Origin: Mumia flava
Lineage (GTDB): Bacteria; Actinomycetota; Actinomycetes; Propionibacteriales; Nocardioidaceae
Length of the DNA stretch: 64,000 bases
Assembly: GCF_002797495.1 (NCBI RefSeq)
Contig: NZ_PGEZ01000001.1
Coordinates: forward strand, 806,001-870,000
Direction of reading: 5' to 3'
A program made the translations under genes and the position numbers. The notes beneath the pieces were generated by a model. That model did not search any database. It saw nothing but the letters and a program-made list of their open reading frames with translations, and was not told the origin of the DNA. Positions 38,204-48,583 of the stretch are shown piece by piece (within the stretch, counting starts at the first letter, position 1; the number at the start of each line of letters is the position of its first letter).

Positions 38204-39034
38204 CTAGAACCCCAGACCCTGCGCCCAGACCGCGTCGAGACCGCGAGCCGGCAGCACCGCCTTCATCGCGAGGATCGTGCGCGCATCCGTCCCGACCACC
38301 GTGCGCGGCCTCATCCGCCGTCGACCGAGCTGCCGCTCGACAGCGGCGGCGACGCGCTCGGGCGGCTTCGCGTTCCGGCGGATCCTGCCGACCAGCCGGC
38401 GCTCGCCGGCGAAGTGCGGCGCGTACAGCCGCTGGTGCTCGGGGGTGAGGCCGGCCTCGAGCTCGTCGAGCAGCCGGTCCATCTCGTGCCACGGGTCGGT
38501 GTCGGTCACCCCCGGCTCGACGACGGCCACCTGGACGCCGAACGGGCGCAGCTCCACCCTCAGGCAGTCGGCCACCGCCTCGGTCGCGTACTTCGAGGCG
38601 TTGTACAGGCCCGTGAACGGGAACGACACCCTGCCGTTGATCGACGAGATGAAGACGACGCGCCCACGTGTCCGGCGCAGACGCGGCAACACGGTGCGCG
38701 TGAGCGCGAGCGGGCCGATCAGGTTGACGTCGAACTGGTGGTGCATGTCCGCCGAGGACAACGTCTCGACCGGTCCGGCGACCGCGATGCCGGCGTTGTT
38801 GACGAGTGCGTCGAGCCGTTCGGGGAGCTCGCGGTCGAGCGCGGCGAGGTGCGCGGGGACGGTGAGGTCGAGCTCGACCGGCGTGATCAGTTCCGACTCG
38901 GCGGCCAGCTCCTTGCCGGCCGCCTCCGTACGGACCCCGCCATAGACCTCCCACCCCGAGCAGGCGAGGCGGACCGCGATGGCGCGGCCGATCCCCCGGC
39001 CGGCACCGGTGACGAGGACCCTTCGTGTGCTCAT
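38204..39034 (-). CDS. Short-chain dehydrogenase/reductase
   Basis: 276 residues. Cofactor motif TGAGRGIG (about residues 9-16), NNAG, and the catalytic Tyr-Lys in YNASK with SSI upstream. VRTEA at the second strand end suggests NADP(H). It is divergent from a large LuxR regulator, and a CGAGTA-N6-TACTCG dyad lies between them, so it is a likely target of that regulator. Confidence 0.88.
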   Translation of the reverse strand: MSTRRVLVTGAGRGIGRAIAVRLACSGWEVYGGVRTEAAGKELAAESELITPVELDLTVPAHLAALDRELPERLDALVNNAGIAVAGPVETLSSADMHHQFDVNLIGPLALTRTVLPRLRRTRGRVVFISSINGRVSFPFTGLYNASKYATEAVADCLRVELRPFGVQVAVVEPGVTDTDPWHEMDRLLDELEAGLTPEHQRLYAPHFAGERRLVGRIRRNAKPPERVAAAVERQLGRRRMRPRTVVGTDARTILAMKAVLPARGLDAVWAQGLGF

Positions 39035-39068
39035 GCAGCAAGGGTCGCGCCGCTCGACCGCGCAGGCA

Positions 39069-39086
39069 CGAGTAGTGCGGTACTCG
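39069..39086. promoter_or_regulatory. Dyad CGAGTA-N6-TACTCG, copy 1 (SDR/LuxR divergent promoter)
   Basis: Perfect 6-base arms around a 6-base spacer, in the 76 bases between the SDR start and the LuxR start. The same arms and spacer length recur after the LuxR gene (41654-41671). It is a candidate operator for the LuxR protein. Confidence 0.65.
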
Positions 39087-39110
39087 AATCCGTGGCGCTA
39101 GCCTGAGCCC

Positions 39111-41660
39111 ATGGAGCGGCCGTGGCCGCTCACCGGGCGTGACGAGGAGCTGCGGAGGGTTGCGGCGGCCATCCGACCCGGTGCTGCGGGGGTGGTGGTG
39201 GCCGGTCCGGCCGGGGTCGGCAAGACCCGGCTCGTCCGCGAGGCCCTCGAGACGTCCGCGCCGCGAGGCGCGGCGGTCGTCCTGGCCCACGGCAGCGCGG
39301 CGGCCCGACCGCTGCCGCTCGGTGCGTTGGCGGGTCTGCTCGACGTCCCGGCCTCGCCGGCCGCGGACGCCATCGGACAGGCCTTGGACCAGCTCGAGCA
39401 GCAGCAACCCCTGGTGCTGGCCGTCGACGACGCGCACCTGCTCGACGAGCACTCCGCGCTCGTGCTCCACCGTGTGGTCGAGCGACGGATCGCGCCTGCG
39501 GTGATCACGCTGCGGACCGGGGAACCGGCGCCGGACAGCGTGACGGCACTGTGGAAGGACGAGCACCTCCCCCGCCTCGATCTGGTCCCGCTCGACCTGG
39601 CGGAGACGACCGGCCTGGTCGCGCAGGTCCTCGGCGGCCCGGTCGACTCGGCGTCGGCCCAGCGGCTGTGGACACTGACCCAGGGCAGCCCGCTGTTCCT
39701 CCGACACCTGCTCGGCGGCGAGGTGGCGGCAGGCCGCTTCACCCCGGCGTCCGGGATCTGGCGGTGGACCAGTGAGCCGGCGATCTCGCCGGACCTCGCC
39801 GACCTGCTCCAGCACGAGATCGGGAGCCTCCCCCAGCCGGTGCACGACGTGGTCGACCTGGTCGCGCTCACGGAGCCCGTCGCGGTCGCGACGCTCGCCG
39901 CCCTGGTCTCGGCGACCGCGCTGGAGGAGGCCGAGGCTCGGCACCTGGTGCGCAGCGACGGGGTCGTCGCCCGTCTGGCGCACCCGCTGTACGGCGAGGT
40001 CCGCCGTGCCGCGATGGGAACGCTGCGCGCCCGCCGCCTGCGCGGGCTCGTCGCGCAGACGTTGGAGCCCGACCCGGACCCGCTCCCGCGGGCCGTGCTC
40101 ACGCTCGACTCGGATCTGCCGGCCGACCCCGAGCTCTTCCTCAGGGCGGCCGAGGCCGCGACCCGGCTGTACGACCTGCCCCTGGCCGAGCGGCTCGCAC
40201 GCGCGGCCGCCACGACGGGCAACCCCGTGGCCTTGCTCGTGCACGCCGCGGCCCTCTCCTGGCTCAGCCGCGGTGACGAGGCCGAGACGATCCTGGCGCA
40301 CCTCGCCACGAGCACCTCGGACCCGGGGGTGTCCGCGATGGCCCACCTGCACCGCACCGGCAACCTGCTCTGGACGATGGCGCGCCCCGAGCAGGCCCGC
40401 GGGGCGCTCGCCGCGGCCGAGTCCGCCGGAGCAGCTCCGTTCCACGTGGCCGCGATGTCCCTCGCCCTCGAGGCCGCCGCCGGCGAGACCTCCGCCGTGC
40501 TGGACCGCGGACCGCAGCTGCTGCGCGCCGAGCTGCCCGACGACCTCGCGCGGATCCTCGTCGCCTCGGCGGTCTCGGCGGCAGCCGCCGTGACGGGACG
40601 CGCCGAGCTGCTCGACGAGGCCGCTGCGGTCGGCGGCCTCACGCAGGACCGGGTGCCGACCACCATCCCCGGATTCGGGCTCGCCGATCTCCAGGTGCTC
40701 GGGCACCGCCTGGCGGGGACGACCGGTCGGGCCGACGAGCTGGCCCGACGCATGCGCACCGCATCCGCGGACCTGCCGGGCCCGGCGCGGCTGATGGGCC
40801 TGGTCGTGGCGGGCCACGCCGCACTCTGCGGCGGCCGGCTCGGCGATGCGCTGCCGCTCCTGCGCGAGGCGTGGGCGGGCCTGGAGGGCTCGGGCCACGA
40901 GTTCCGCTTCCGGTGCCGGACGTTGCTGGGGACCGCGCTCGCGCAGGCGGGTCTCGCCGAGCAGGCAGGCCTCGTCCTGGTCGACATCGAGACCGAGCAG
41001 CACCCGGCGTACGGCCTGTACCGGCCGGACGACCTCCTCGCGCAGGCGTGGGCAGCCGCTGCCGACGGATCGACGACCGCGGCGATCGGCTTCGCCGCGA
41101 GCGCGGCGGGGCTCGCCCGTGAGACCGGCGCCACCGCGTACGAGGTGCTGGCGTGGCAGAGCGCCGTGCAGCTCGGCGGCACAGCGGAGGCCGGCCCTCG
41201 CCTGGTCGCCCTGGGCGACGCCGTCCCGCGCGCGCAGGTCGCGCTCGCCCACGCTCGCGCGTGGCAGGACGAGGACGGCACGGCGCTCCTGGAGGCCGCC
41301 GACCGCTGGAGCAGGCTCGGCGACCTGGTCGCTGCCGGGGACGCGGCGGCCCAGGCCTCCCAGGCCTACCGCCGTCGCGGGCAGCAGGGCGCGGCGCTGA
41401 CGGCCGCAGCTCGTGCCGACGGCCTCGCGGCCCGGTCCGGTGCCCGGACTCCGGCCCTGTCGATCGCGGCGCGGCCCCTCCCGCTGACCGGGCGGGAGCG
41501 GGAGATCGTCACCCTCGCCGCGCGCGGGCTGACGAACAAGGACATCGCCGCACGGCTGACGGTCTCGGTGCGGACGGTCGAAGGGCATCTGTACCGCGCC
41601 GGGCACAAGCTGGGGGTCTCGGAGCGCAGCGCCCTCGCGGACCTCCTCGGGATCGAGTAG
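39111..41660 (+). CDS. LuxR-family regulator with N-terminal NTPase (LAL type)
   Basis: 849 residues. Walker A GPAGVGKT (32-39) and Walker B LVLAVDD (101-107) form an AAA-type NTPase. A long TPR-like helical region (about 300-780) follows, then a C-terminal LuxR HTH (about 788-848; LTGREREIVTLAARGLTNKDI). Such proteins integrate a ligand signal with ATP binding. Dyads with the same arms flank the gene, one in the divergent promoter shared with the SDR and one before the cupin gene, suggesting autoregulation and control of both neighbours. Confidence 0.9.
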   Translation: MERPWPLTGRDEELRRVAAAIRPGAAGVVVAGPAGVGKTRLVREALETSAPRGAAVVLAHGSAAARPLPLGALAGLLDVPASPAADAIGQALDQLEQQQPLVLAVDDAHLLDEHSALVLHRVVERRIAPAVITLRTGEPAPDSVTALWKDEHLPRLDLVPLDLAETTGLVAQVLGGPVDSASAQRLWTLTQGSPLFLRHLLGGEVAAGRFTPASGIWRWTSEPAISPDLADLLQHEIGSLPQPVHDVVDLVALTEPVAVATLAALVSATALEEAEARHLVRSDGVVARLAHPLYGEVRRAAMGTLRARRLRGLVAQTLEPDPDPLPRAVLTLDSDLPADPELFLRAAEAATRLYDLPLAERLARAAATTGNPVALLVHAAALSWLSRGDEAETILAHLATSTSDPGVSAMAHLHRTGNLLWTMARPEQARGALAAAESAGAAPFHVAAMSLALEAAAGETSAVLDRGPQLLRAELPDDLARILVASAVSAAAAVTGRAELLDEAAAVGGLTQDRVPTTIPGFGLADLQVLGHRLAGTTGRADELARRMRTASADLPGPARLMGLVVAGHAALCGGRLGDALPLLREAWAGLEGSGHEFRFRCRTLLGTALAQAGLAEQAGLVLVDIETEQHPAYGLYRPDDLLAQAWAAAADGSTTAAIGFAASAAGLARETGATAYEVLAWQSAVQLGGTAEAGPRLVALGDAVPRAQVALAHARAWQDEDGTALLEAADRWSRLGDLVAAGDAAAQASQAYRRRGQQGAALTAAARADGLAARSGARTPALSIAARPLPLTGREREIVTLAARGLTNKDIAARLTVSVRTVEGHLYRAGHKLGVSERSALADLLGIE

Positions 41661-41674
41661 CCCACTACTCGATC
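41651..41674 (+). promoter_or_regulatory. Dyad CGAGTA-N6-TACTCG, copy 2 (before cupin gene)
   Basis: GATCGAGTAG (41651-41660) and CTACTCGATC (41665-41674) form a perfect 10-base inverted repeat with a 4-base loop. It contains the same CGAGTA-N6-TACTCG core as copy 1 (41654-41671). It overlaps the LuxR stop codon and lies 50 bases before the cupin ATG. It may act as an operator, or as a transcript hairpin after the LuxR gene. Confidence 0.65.
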
Positions 41675-41724
41675 CGACCTCGCCCGGTCGTCGGAGGCTG
41701 GACGCATCCGGCGAAGGAGGAGCC

Positions 41725-42180
41725 ATGACCAGCATCAACGTCCAGCCCGGCGAGGGCCGACGCTACCGGATGATCGACGGCGACCATGTCGCGAAGGCGG
41801 CCGTCCACGACACCGCGGGCGCGTTCGAGGTGTTCGAGGTGATCGCACCCGCCGCACCGATGGCGCCGCCGCACGTCTCACCGTGGACCGGCGTGCTGTT
41901 CCTCCTCGAGGGACGCGTGAGCGTCATGGTCGACGCGACGTCGTACGAGGTGGAGCCGGGCGGGCTGGTCGTGATCCCGGCCGGGACGCCTGCCACGTTC
42001 GGGGTCGTCGGCGACACCGCGCGCTTCCTCGCGATCACGTCGGGCGACGGAGCCGGGCGGTTCTTCGCCGACTTCGCCTCCACGGTGCCGCTCGACCGGC
42101 CGGTCGAGGACGCGATGGAGGCGATCCTCTCGGTGACGCAGCGGCACGGCGTCGCGCTCGCGGGAGCGGCCACGCCGTGA
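41725..42180 (+). CDS. Cupin-domain protein
   Basis: 151 residues, ATG with GAAGGAGGAG upstream. A single cupin barrel: PPHVSPWTGVLFLLEG and VEPGGLVVIPAGTPATF mark cupin motifs 1 and 2. The second metal His is not obvious in motif 2. Possible roles are a sensor or a small isomerase/dioxygenase. It sits directly after a copy of the LuxR-associated dyad, so it likely belongs to the same regulon as the SDR at 38204. Confidence 0.85.
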   Translation: MTSINVQPGEGRRYRMIDGDHVAKAAVHDTAGAFEVFEVIAPAAPMAPPHVSPWTGVLFLLEGRVSVMVDATSYEVEPGGLVVIPAGTPATFGVVGDTARFLAITSGDGAGRFFADFASTVPLDRPVEDAMEAILSVTQRHGVALAGAATP

Positions 42181-42268
42181 GGTCGCGAGCCGTGGACGGC
42201 TCGGGTCCGTCCACGGTCCCCCAGCGGCGGCCTGCGCCGAGGCGCTTCCTGGGGTTGGCTGGTCGTCG

Positions 42269-42946
42269 ATGGAGGTCAGAGCCCGACTCATCGCGACCCG
42301 GCTGCCGGAGGAACCGGCCGCAGCGGTCGTCGTCCTGCACGGGGGTGGGGGCCGTCGCGGCACCACGGTGGTGAGTCCCACCCAGCCGTCCGTCCTGCGG
42401 ATGGTCCCGATCGCGAAGCGACTCGCGCACGCCGGTCGCGGCAGGCTGGCGGTCTTCCGACTGCTGAACAGCACCCGCGGCTGGAACCCCGGACGTACGC
42501 CGGTCGACGACGTGCGCTGGGCCTTGGAGCGCCTCCGGACGGAGCACCGGCTCGATGTGCCCGTGTCGCTGGTCGGGCACTCGCTGGGCGGCCGTGCCGC
42601 GATCCTGGCGGGTGCTCATCCGAGCGTCTCGAGCGTCGTCGCGCTCAACCCGTACCTGTACGCCACCGACGGCGACACCGACCTCGACGGCAGGTCGGTG
42701 CTGATCGTGCACGGCACCGACGACCGCGTCGCCGACCCGGCCATCGCTGCGGCCGTCTCGCACGCGCTCGAGCGCTCGGCACACGTCACCTTCGTCCGCG
42801 TGCGGGGCGGCAAGCACGCGATGCTGCGGCGGCACCACCTCTTCGACGGGCTCGCAGCCGGCTTCGTGACGACGACGCTCCTCGGCGCCCCGCCTCGCGG
42901 TGCGCTGGCCGATGTACTGGCAGGTCGTGCCGGGACGGACGTCTGA
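42269..42946 (+). CDS. Alpha/beta hydrolase (dienelactone-hydrolase-like)
   Basis: 225 residues. Oxyanion loop HGGGG near residue 24, nucleophile Ser105 in GHSLGG, acid Asp in HGTDDRVAD and His in GGKHAML complete a triad. The size fits small serine hydrolases. It follows the cupin gene by 88 bases; co-transcription is possible but no regulatory element is visible. Confidence 0.83.
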   Translation: MEVRARLIATRLPEEPAAAVVVLHGGGGRRGTTVVSPTQPSVLRMVPIAKRLAHAGRGRLAVFRLLNSTRGWNPGRTPVDDVRWALERLRTEHRLDVPVSLVGHSLGGRAAILAGAHPSVSSVVALNPYLYATDGDTDLDGRSVLIVHGTDDRVADPAIAAAVSHALERSAHVTFVRVRGGKHAMLRRHHLFDGLAAGFVTTTLLGAPPRGALADVLAGRAGTDV

Positions 42947-45672: not shown

Positions 45673-47016
45673 ATGGACACCGACCTCACCCGACGGAGCG
45701 TGCTGACCAAGGCCCTGGCGGCCTCAGCGCTGGCAGCGGCTTCGAGCTCGCTGATGGCGTGCTCGGGTTCGGCGGACGATTCCCCGGCCGACGCAGAGCG
45801 AGGCGCGACGGACGATCCCCTCTCCCTGTCCACCTGGCAGGACGTCCGCGACTCCTTCCCGCTGTCGACCGAGCAGGCCCACCTCGCGGCGTTCGTCCTC
45901 GCGGCCCACCCCGATCCGGTGCGTCGCGCCATCGAGCAGTGGCGGGATGCGCTGGACGCCGACCCCGCGCTGGTGCTCGAGGACGAGCAGGCCCACGAGC
46001 AGGTGGCGCGCGAGGCCGCCGCGGCGCACCTGGGCGTCGATCCGATGGAGGTGGCCCTCACCGACAGCACGACCATGGGTCTCGGGACCGTCTACAACGG
46101 GCTGCGGCTCCGGCCCGGGGACCGGATCCTGACCACCACGCACGACTTCTACTCCTCGCACGAGTCGTTACGACTCGCCGCTCAGCGCTCGGGCGCGAGG
46201 CTCGACGTCGTCACGCTGTACGACGACCCGGCCGACGCCACCGCCGACGAGATGGTGCGACGCGTGGAGCGGGGCATCACCGCCCGCACCCGGGTGGTGG
46301 CGCTGACGTGGGTGCACTCCGGGACGGGGGTCAAGATCCCCGTCCGAGCGGTCGCGGACCTCGTCGCCGACGCGAACCGCGGTCGACCGCCCGAGCGCCG
46401 CGCGGTGGTGTGCCTCGATGCGGTGCACGGCTTCGGAGCCAGTGCCGAGCGGCCGGCGGACCTCGGCGTCGACGTCTTCATCAGCGGCACGCACAAGTGG
46501 CTGTTCGGCCCTCGCGGGACCGGCATCGTGTGGGCGCGGTCGGAGTCCGTCGACGGCGTCCTTCCGACGATCCCGGCCTTCTACGCACCCAGCTTCACCA
46601 ACTGGATCACCGGCGGATCGGATCCCAGTCCGTTCGGCCTCGCGATGACCGCCGGCGGCTACCACTCGTTCGAGCACCGGTGGGCCCTGCCGCAGGCCTT
46701 CGCGTTCCACGACGCGATCGGTGTCGAGCGGATCGCATCCCGGACGACGGAGCTCGCCGGCCGGCTCAAGGAGGGGCTCGCCGATCTGCCGAACGGGCGC
46801 CTGGTGACACCCGCCGCTGCCGAGGTCTCCGCCGGGATCGTCTGCTACGAGCTCGACGGCCTCTCGCCCTCGGACGCGGTCGCCACCTTGCGGGAGCGCG
46901 ATCACATCGTGGCGGGCGTGACCCCGTACGCCACCCCGTACCTGCGGTTCGGCCCGAGCATCGTCAACTCGACCGACGAGGTCGATGCGACGATCGCGGC
47001 GGTCGCGGAGCTCTGA
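45673..47016 (+). CDS. Exported Tat-lipoprotein PLP enzyme, aminotransferase class V
   Basis: 447 residues, ATG with GAGGAG upstream. The N-terminus has a twin-arginine-like motif (TRRSVLTK) and a lipobox LMAC with Cys30, predicting Tat export and lipid anchoring. The mature part is a class V aminotransferase/isopenicillin-N-epimerase-like fold with the PLP lysine Lys275 in SGTHKWLFGPRG and the aspartate in CLDAVHGFG. PLP enzymes are normally cytoplasmic; Tat export would allow the cofactor to be loaded before transport. Substrate unknown. Its 3' end overlaps the convergent LuxR gene by 53 bases. Confidence 0.85.
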   Translation: MDTDLTRRSVLTKALAASALAAASSSLMACSGSADDSPADAERGATDDPLSLSTWQDVRDSFPLSTEQAHLAAFVLAAHPDPVRRAIEQWRDALDADPALVLEDEQAHEQVAREAAAAHLGVDPMEVALTDSTTMGLGTVYNGLRLRPGDRILTTTHDFYSSHESLRLAAQRSGARLDVVTLYDDPADATADEMVRRVERGITARTRVVALTWVHSGTGVKIPVRAVADLVADANRGRPPERRAVVCLDAVHGFGASAERPADLGVDVFISGTHKWLFGPRGTGIVWARSESVDGVLPTIPAFYAPSFTNWITGGSDPSPFGLAMTAGGYHSFEHRWALPQAFAFHDAIGVERIASRTTELAGRLKEGLADLPNGRLVTPAAAEVSAGIVCYELDGLSPSDAVATLRERDHIVAGVTPYATPYLRFGPSIVNSTDEVDATIAAVAEL

Positions 47017-48583
47017 GCGGCCGCGTCCTCTGCTCGTGGGGCTCGTCGTGCCGGCGCCAGAGAGCGGCGGCTTCACCGCGGTTGCGTACGCCGAGCTTCG
47101 CGAGCACGTTGCTGACGTGGTGGGCCACGGTCTTGCGACTCAGGAACAGTCGTTCGGCGATCTCGGGATTCGTGAGGCCGCTGGCGACCAGGGACAGGAC
47201 CTCCCGCTCTCGGTGGGTGAGAACACCCGTGGCGCGCGGTTCTGGGACCCCTCGCCCACCGAGTCTGCGCAGCACCGCCGAGGCCCGGTCGGTCTCGCTG
47301 CGGGCGTCCAGGGAGACGAGGATCTCTGCGGCTGCCCGACACTCGGCCAGTGCGGAGGCTGGGTCCGACTCGGCCAGCACCTCGGCCAGGGCGACTCCGG
47401 TCGTGGCTTGCTCCAACGGCAGCCGGGCGCGAGCAAAGCGACGCACCGCCTCACGCAACAGGTCAGCAGTGTCGGGGGACGCACGCGACGCTGCGACCTG
47501 ACCCTCGGCAAGCCGCGCGTACGCCGTGAGCGCGGCGCCGACGTCGTGGGTGGTGACCTCGGTCAGCCTCGCCGCAGTGGTGGCAGCATCCTCGGGCTCG
47601 TTGCAGGCGATCTTGAGCTCGACGAGCAGGGCGAGCTCAGGGATCACTGCCGGTTCGTCTCTGCGAGGCCTGATCGCGTCCGAGAGCGCCGCCGCCGCGG
47701 CCCGACGCTCGATGTCGCTGACGGCCTGCCGCCAGGCGAGCCGTGCCGCAGGGCGGGATGCGAAGCCGTCCTCCCTGCCCTCCTGAAGATGGCGCTCGGC
47801 CTCCTCGAGCCGTCCCTGGCGAACGCGCAGCTCCGCCATGCGTGCGCACGCGGCCGGCCGCAGCGCGCGGTACGTCGCGTCGTACAGCTCGATGGCTCGG
47901 GCCAGCTCGCGCTCGGCCTCGTCCCACCTGCCGGCGACGGTCCACACGGCGCCGACGTGCATCCGGCAGATCGCCGAGGCCCACGCGAGATCGAGCCGCT
48001 GCTCGAGCAGCGTGACCACCCGGTGCCACTCCTCGGCGCGCGGCACGTCCAGCACCTGCTCGCACGCGACCATCAGCTTGCAGAAGATCTCGCCGGCCAC
48101 GACCGGACTCGTCACCTCGCCGCTGTAGGCGGCCGCGACCGCCTCGTCGAGCAGCCGCATCCCGCGCCCCACCCGACCGCGCTCGACGGTGGCGAGCCCC
48201 CGGTACGCCAGGGCGTCGAAGCCCAGGTCCGCGTCGCCGAACGTGGCGGCGGCGCGTTCGGCCACGCCGGTCCAACGATCCCGCTCGCGCGTGTCCGCGG
48301 CGTGGAGCGCGCGGGCCAGGGCGACCCAGCCCGCCTCAGCGCAGTCACCGGAAGCGGACGCAAGCCTGATGCCCCGCTCGAGCCATCCCTGCGCCACGGC
48401 CTTGTTGCCGAAGAGAGCCAGGTGGTCGAAGGCGATCTGGTACGCCGCCAGCCGTGACGCCGACCGGGTCTCCCCCGCCTGCCGCAGCCGGGTGTACGCC
48501 TGCTCGCGAGCAGCCAGCGCCCCCGCGTAGTCACCTTCCGCGGCGCGGGTGTCGGCCACGCTGAGAAGCTCCTCGGCCTCCAT
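46964..48583 (-). CDS. LuxR-family regulator with TPR-like N-terminus
   Basis: 539 residues. About 440 residues of TPR-like helices (EAEELLSVADTRAAEGDYAG at the start) precede a C-terminal LuxR HTH (about 455-510; LTHREREVLSLVASGLTNPEI). Unlike the regulator at 39111, no NTPase motif is present. A basic Arg/Pro-rich tail follows the HTH and is encoded in the region overlapping the convergent PLP-enzyme gene. It is divergent from a methyltransferase. Confidence 0.88.
   Translation of the reverse strand: MEAEELLSVADTRAAEGDYAGALAAREQAYTRLRQAGETRSASRLAAYQIAFDHLALFGNKAVAQGWLERGIRLASASGDCAEAGWVALARALHAADTRERDRWTGVAERAAATFGDADLGFDALAYRGLATVERGRVGRGMRLLDEAVAAAYSGEVTSPVVAGEIFCKLMVACEQVLDVPRAEEWHRVVTLLEQRLDLAWASAICRMHVGAVWTVAGRWDEAERELARAIELYDATYRALRPAACARMAELRVRQGRLEEAERHLQEGREDGFASRPAARLAWRQAVSDIERRAAAAALSDAIRPRRDEPAVIPELALLVELKIACNEPEDAATTAARLTEVTTHDVGAALTAYARLAEGQVAASRASPDTADLLREAVRRFARARLPLEQATTGVALAEVLAESDPASALAECRAAAEILVSLDARSETDRASAVLRRLGGRGVPEPRATGVLTHREREVLSLVASGLTNPEIAERLFLSRKTVAHHVSNVLAKLGVRNRGEAAALWRRHDEPHEQRTRPLRAPRPPRSSHRPRRSS

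Follow-up and report, generated by a model that had tools for sequence, protein, structure and literature searches.

When the same short inverted repeat stands on both sides of a regulatory gene, two questions follow: which protein reads it, and which genes does it serve? They are raised by a stretch of 64,000 nucleotides from Mumia flava (Nocardioidaceae; NCBI RefSeq assembly GCF_002797495.1, contig NZ_PGEZ01000001.1, positions 806,001 to 870,000 of the forward strand; the whole stretch is called the window here, and its coordinates count from its first letter), in which the dyad CGAGTA-N6-TACTCG occurs at 39069-39086 and again at 41654-41671. Between the two copies lies a gene for an 849-residue regulator of the LAL type (large ATP-binding regulators of the LuxR family; 39111-41660, plus strand). 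The upstream copy separates it from a divergent gene for an oxidoreductase of the short-chain dehydrogenase/reductase (SDR) family (38204-39034, minus strand, start at 39034), and the downstream copy precedes a co-directional gene for a small, single-domain cupin (41725-42180, plus strand, start at 41725). This is the layout given in a first-pass annotation, which had been made from the letters alone and had proposed that the LuxR-type protein binds both dyads and governs three targets: the SDR, itself and the cupin. The comparisons described here lead to a related answer, namely that the LAL protein probably binds both dyads and would activate the SDR and cupin genes as a class II activator.

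Two identical dyads and their conservation

Both predicted operators, neither assigned to a strand, match CGAGTA-N6-TACTCG with no mismatch at the places first reported for them, and have equal arms and an equal spacer. The downstream copy had also been described as part of a longer perfect dyad with arms of 10 bases; the perfect dyad is there (41650-41675), but its arms are 11 bp long, GGATCGAGTAG (41650-41660) and CTACTCGATCC (41665-41675) about a centre of 4 bases, and the LAL stop codon TAG (41658-41660) falls within it. The arms of the upstream copy extend over 6 bp only. The search of the whole genome that had been suggested (4,402,465 bases in 7 contigs) found the exact pattern in two places, both of them here, and a reversed control pattern in none; a rough estimate with independent bases gives 0.07 exact matches, and 100 dinucleotide shuffles of the window contained none. 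When the pattern was relaxed, the signal disappeared: with up to one mismatch there were three places in the genome for the dyad and likewise three for the reversed control, and with up to three mismatches there were seven places in the window against 21 expected, which is below chance. Since relaxed matches carry no signal, only the exact pair was counted, and the degenerate dyads inside the window (3 mismatches), being rarer than chance, were dropped.

Conservation of the two copies was followed through the orthologues of the regulator. At E<=1e-60 an orthologue is present in four of the five other Mumia genomes, and a match occurs in 15 of 294 genomes of the family (its own genome counted), 13 of the others at 73-77% identity and one (G080) at 36%; beyond the family sample, orthologues are found in Cellulomonas sp. 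Leaf395 (75%) and Amycolatopsis marina (53%). The aligned set comprises 16 flanks (the window, 13 family loci, Leaf395 and A. marina), and all counts out of 16 or 7 given below include the window. The downstream dyad, with 0-1 mismatch, is present in 16/16. The upstream dyad, by the same measure, is present in 9/16, that is, in all seven that have the divergent SDR gene and in two others (L061 and L062), and it has been lost in seven of the nine without a divergent SDR gene (L063, L065-L068, L042 and L045). The earlier proposal had been staked on further copies in orthologous loci, and such copies are indeed found at the corresponding positions. Gene order has changed in A. marina (LAL, dyad, cupin, SDR), yet the SDR and cupin genes stay associated there.

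Seven genomes lacking an SDR gene beside LAL were searched for one elsewhere (those of L042 and L045 lay outside this search), and six had none at E<=1e-40; in G243 a relative of 42% identity was found. G060, among those six, has a stretch of 34 SDR residues at 82% at the end of another contig. That contig end (L072 5552-7084, G060:C197) holds several pieces of a second LAL gene, a dyad and an SDR start 82% like that of the window, and is possibly a decayed, shortened or misassembled paralogue locus. In the LAL orthologue of L065 (G243:C16) one in-frame TAG interrupts the gene, whose downstream dyad is intact; the gene may recently have become a pseudogene, or the TAG may be a sequencing error. 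DNA looping between the two dyads was considered; the distance between them tracks how long the LAL gene is.

A hexamer at a fixed distance from the dyad

On the cupin side, a hexamer of the form xANNNT lies exactly 22 bp past the dyad in 16/16 orthologues, with the A and the T invariant; in the window it reads GAGGCT (41694-41699, plus strand). On the SDR side, the same form lies 22 bp from the dyad in 7/7 orthologues with a divergent SDR gene and is followed by exactly 6 nt and then the ATG; in the window it reads GACCCT (39041-39046, minus strand). From the centre of the dyad to the last base of either hexamer is 36.5 bp in the window, and all 23 of these SDR and cupin hexamers begin with G or C, none with T. 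Judged by position and by what is generally known of actinobacterial promoters, xANNNT would be a -10 element, and the mRNAs of SDR and LAL would be leaderless. Dependence on an activator fits such promoters, because their putative -10 elements carry G or C in place of the expected T. No sigma-70-like pair of -35 and -10 elements was found in 38900-42300. Elsewhere in the genome, the sole additional place with one mismatch to the dyad has no hexamer at 22 bp and was not counted as a target, so that a wider regulon in this genome was not adopted.

The LAL promoter is built differently. Its putative -10 hexamer, TAGCCT (39099-39104, plus strand), stands 12 bp from the dyad and 6 nt before the LAL ATG; the upstream dyad is thus 10 bp nearer to it than to the SDR hexamer. 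The form TANCCT is found in 16/16 orthologues, even where the upstream dyad has been lost, and its spacing from the dyad varies between 12 and 14 bp, whereas that on the SDR side is fixed at 22. Being 10 bp nearer, the dyad would overlie the -35 zone, and any effect that it has on the LAL promoter is probably mild repression; and since the upstream dyad is lost in most orthologues without a divergent SDR gene while the LAL -10 is kept, it appears to be retained mainly for the SDR gene. Of the three targets proposed at first, the SDR and the cupin therefore stand, with an identical and conserved distance from dyad to -10, and the regulator as its own target is the weak member. LAL autoregulation is superfluous for explaining the conservation of the dyads.

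The same layout beside other LAL genes

The geometry was then followed beyond the orthologues. When 345 genomes of the class were searched for exact copies of CGAGTAGNNNNCTACTCG, 11 genomes had matches; nine of the 14 exact sites outside Mumia show the hexamer at 22 bp, and in a scan of offsets 4-79 no other offset exceeds 3. The flanks of 32 distant LAL homologues contain 18 dyads with an AGTAG core (up to one mismatch) at 13 loci, and the hexamer is present at 16 of the 18, against a background of 4.7%; when the arms were reversed as a control, there was one dyad, and it lacked the hexamer. These two tests overlap in five sites (L102, L106, L108, L110 and L111), and the latter shares the downstream dyad of A. 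marina with the orthologue set.

A fresh set came from a protein search of 201 genomes of another family, of which 83 have LAL homologues; 99 new loci were taken, after removal of eight already present under other identifiers. A GTA-N6-TAC dyad (>=6/7 pairs) occurs at 20 of these loci, 24 dyads in all, and 22 of them have the hexamer. With a wider edge margin the hexamer is present at 22/23 dyads, compared with 36/639 other dyads of equal symmetry, and in the final count, for which one duplicate was dropped as loci L245 and L261 overlap, at 21/22 compared with 36/633. The offset scan of this set is sharp (22 dyads at 22 bp; next best offset 6), and the first base of the flagged hexamers, with the wider margin, is C in 10, G in 8, T in 4 and A in 2. 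The 22 fresh dyads are not all independent, as they comprise only 16 distinct sequences.

Nature also supplied a negative set, in the form of 12 sites of the family that have the same outer arms, lack the CGAGTAG...CTACTCG core and lie away from LAL orthologues (G060:C197, which adjoins pieces of a LAL gene, was excluded). Of the 11 with a locus, L025 (re-read as L119) alone has the hexamer at 22 bp, and it alone lies near a LAL match. Offset 26 is the favoured one in this set (4/11). At L026, L027, L032 and similar loci of Nocardioidaceae, a pattern of CGAGTA, then TGCGC or GGCGC, then TACTCG recurs without a LAL match, and sites with these other cores perhaps belong to an unrelated factor.

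Some individual loci deserve mention. At L115, exact dyads flank the LAL gene on both sides, and at L117 (5786, 8581) a distant LAL gene likewise has dyads on both sides, the upstream one with 2 mismatches and the downstream one 34 nt ahead of the ATG of a gene for a Tle1-like hydrolase. At L071 (8110-8127; G185:C11:285109), a dyad with a perfect core and the hexamer at 22 bp precedes a gene for an RCC1-repeat protein; no homologue of LAL, SDR or cupin was found in the 16 kb around it, and it is possibly a distant member of the regulon. The genes behind distant dyads include enzyme-like ones, an amidohydrolase (L045) and the Tle1-like hydrolase of L117, and also the RCC1-repeat protein of L071, a PD40 propeller protein (L119) and, at L116, a short protein that matches no Pfam family; an enzyme-inducing role accounts for them only partly.

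Which protein reads the dyad

The case for the LAL protein as the reader, which had been the original prediction, comes from covariation between a residue and a base, from adjacency and from co-occurrence. Among 146 LAL loci, 55 carry 69 dyads linked to a hexamer (56 and 70 before a duplicate was removed). Where residue 825, in the recognition helix, is Gly (RTVE-G-H; 46 loci), G occupies the second base in 108 of 116 half-sites, with A in the other 8 and C in none; where it is Ser, a small class of nine loci, 19 of 22 half-sites have C at that base, 3 have A and none has G. Without the 16 close orthologues, Gly still goes with G in 66/70 half-sites, from 30 loci. In a tree made without the helix-turn-helix (HTH) domain (support values not shown), the Ser protein L070 does not group with the remaining Ser proteins, and the Gly protein L116 stands beside the Ser protein L094, each of the three matching its own dyad; on this tree, therefore, the link between residue and base arose more than once. 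No flagged dyad was found for the Ser protein L177 or the Asn protein L162. In the flanks of L083, L098, L081, L170 and L171, dyads of a CGTAG-N4-CTACG type occur beside further LAL members, which suggests that base 3 likewise varies with the LAL protein.

Residue G825 aligns with the Asn of the DosR sequence TVKN, and N198 of DegU would be the equivalent position. According to a model described in excerpts of PMC9263151, this recognition-helix Asn of DegU is likely to contact a base. The covariation of base 2 with a recognition-helix residue whose counterparts are comparable in this way makes the LAL protein itself the likely binder. Other families likewise have dyads next to LAL genes (L042, L045, L114 and L115), and a LAL homologue (E<=1e-80) is present in six of the eight genomes outside the family that contain a strong dyad, compared with 20 of about 267 (P 2e-6).

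Alternative explanations and weight of the evidence

If the dyads were operators of another transcription factor, the LAL gene would be a mere neighbour, and eight of the 14 class-wide sites do have no LAL homologue within the flank read. Such a factor would have to account for a base that follows the LAL helix residue across separate branches without one crossed case, and for sites beside LAL genes in other families, and it is a quite improbable explanation of the dyads. That LAL works here in the opposite sense, repressing at the dyads until a ligand releases it, also seems unlikely; in its favour are the upstream dyad, which in the window lies over the -35 zone of LAL, and the precedent of the Streptomyces LAL protein SCO6993, described as a repressor in excerpts of PMC9628970. 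Repression needs no exact spacing, yet the SDR and cupin dyads lie at or just upstream of the -35 place at one fixed distance from non-consensus -10s, with no sigma-70-like pair in the region. The downstream dyad was also considered as a terminator hairpin of the LAL gene, since it overlaps the stop codon and its RNA fold is strong (-24.2 kcal/mol with its neighbours, z -4.4). This was rejected as highly implausible: there is no terminator-like site with a run of T in 38900-42300, the copy in the divergent promoter has the same arms and folds in an ordinary manner (z -0.6), and the exact distance from the downstream dyad to the cupin -10 is conserved.

Autoregulation through the upstream dyad is of another kind, as it would add a third target to activation of the SDR and cupin genes by LAL and would not replace it. 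The overlap of this dyad with the LAL -35 zone speaks for it, as do L061 and L062, which retain the dyad with no divergent SDR gene adjoining; the loss of the dyad, with retention of the LAL -10, in seven of nine orthologues without that gene and the variable spacing on the LAL side speak against it, and we regard it as doubtful.

Activation of the SDR and cupin genes by LAL from the two dyads remains our preferred reading, with several observations to be set on the other side of the balance. All of its support is comparative sequence evidence from related loci, and the P values overstate independence because the loci are related. The call of xANNNT depends on two letters, A and T, with start sites placed by position. 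Five of the 14 class-wide CGAGTAGNNNNCTACTCG sites have no hexamer, and eight of the 14 have no LAL homologue in the flank read. No dyad of the kind sought was found within about 1-1.5 kb at 19 of the 32 distant LAL loci or at 79 of the 99 fresh ones, and several relatives of dyad-bearing LAL proteins (e.g., L078 and L093) have none nearby; since most loci in both sets lack the dyad, many LAL members would use other or weaker sites, or distant targets. In the fresh set, only 3 of 23 flagged sides have a start codon exactly 6 nt past the hexamer, and leaderless starts such as that at the SDR gene are thus not general.

With these points in mind, a broader proposal, that an actinobacterial clade of LAL proteins shares one cis code, seems to us reasonably likely. 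Its predicted elements are an inner GTAG-N4-CTAC, outer bases set by residue 825 (Gly reading G, and Ser reading C, at base 2), a poor -10 exactly 22 bp off and, sometimes, a leaderless start 6 nt further on.

Proposed mechanism

In the scheme that we favour, a small-molecule signal and ATP would bind the LAL protein before it docks on the dyad, and a LAL dimer, or a larger ATP-dependent oligomer such as that formed by MalT, would place two GerE domains on CGAGTA-N6-TACTCG. The docked protein would then recruit RNA polymerase to the poor -10 promoters of the SDR gene (divergent) and the cupin gene (downstream). With the edge of the dyad 22 bp from the -10 element, its centre would be at about -43.5 from the putative start site, a class II position, as sites of class II activators are centred near -42.

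If this is correct, the targets of many orphan LAL regulators could be read from sequence, as the dyad, its fixed geometry and the correspondence between residue and base would make targets predictable for LAL members that carry the dyad. As LAL targets are otherwise found one by one, a readable dyad code matters. The layout of site and promoter recurs beside some related actinobacterial regulators and could help to predict their targets as well. At this locus, the SDR and the cupin are named as a predicted co-regulated pair, for which an inducer could be screened, and the fixed geometry would give a clean test of the contact between a STAND-type activator and RNA polymerase.

Genes of the locus

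The assignment of the regulator follows from its two ends. The N terminus, a STAND/AAA ATPase, has an AAA_16 match at residues 7-124 with the Walker A and B ATPase motifs of LAL/MalT-like regulators (G32, G35, G37, D106 and D107 invariant, and K38 nearly so, in 22 homologues), and the C terminus has the GerE HTH expected of the class (791-845, E 3e-13). Its structure model (pLDDT 91) is mostly helical from residue 292, where the helical repeats lie, and has the recognition helix, with G825, at 820-834. The best PDB match in a fold search was the STAND-TPR structure 6mfv (E 1e-11), with low TM values (0.21-0.26) over the whole length, and the fourth was the maltose-system complex 8bob; a STAND fold with a helical-repeat sensor domain is thus found both in the model and in the 6mfv match. 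AbsR2 (NCBIfam equivalog NF050132) was tried as its family, and because the score (248.9 bits) is far below the curated cut-off of 850, the protein was not filed there. The SDR and the cupin are put forward as predicted targets from their domain matches and promoter geometry.

A second LuxR-type regulator is encoded at 46967-48583 on the minus strand (539 aa, with a GerE domain and TPR-like repeats); it gave no ATPase domain match, and a dyad is found there only at 3 mismatches.

Comparison with known systems

LAL regulators are called poorly studied in their own literature (PMC3282765). LAL operators as such are known; in the open-access literature, no paper with this dyad consensus, its spacing or the pairing of residue and base was met among the matches listed. 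A term search of a survey of actinobacterial LuxR proteins (PMC3466318) met none of 'binding site', 'palindrom' and 'recognition helix'.

The LAL protein shares its HTH with the GerE domains of the NarL/FixJ type (DosR, NarL and DegU). The 7-2-7 sites of NarL have TAC at their outer ends; since TAC is inside the dyad here, the LAL half-sites would be reversed relative to those of NarL. In size, in its N-terminal Walker-motif ATPase, in its helical repeats and in its C-terminal GerE HTH, the protein resembles MalT. Where LAL sites have been published, those compared are degenerate palindromes or direct repeats. SCO6993 of Streptomyces coelicolor, also a LAL protein, binds short palindromes as well as the promoter of its own gene; it differs in being a repressor, and its authors could predict no consensus (PMC9628970). 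MilO, an actinobacterial activator of the LuxR-family/LAL kind that is proposed here for the protein of the window, has a mapped site that consists of three 11-bp direct repeats 142 bp upstream (PMC11784345), and TpdR, another actinobacterial LuxR-family/LAL protein and a ligand-responsive activator of a catabolic operon, has a proposed site of 15-nt direct repeats (PMC6099782). The MalT box itself is quoted as a short motif, GGA[TG]GA (PMC9628970), used in direct repeats (PMC6099782). The LAL protein of the window, in contrast to the direct repeats of MalT, has a symmetric dyad at a fixed distance from the -10 element.

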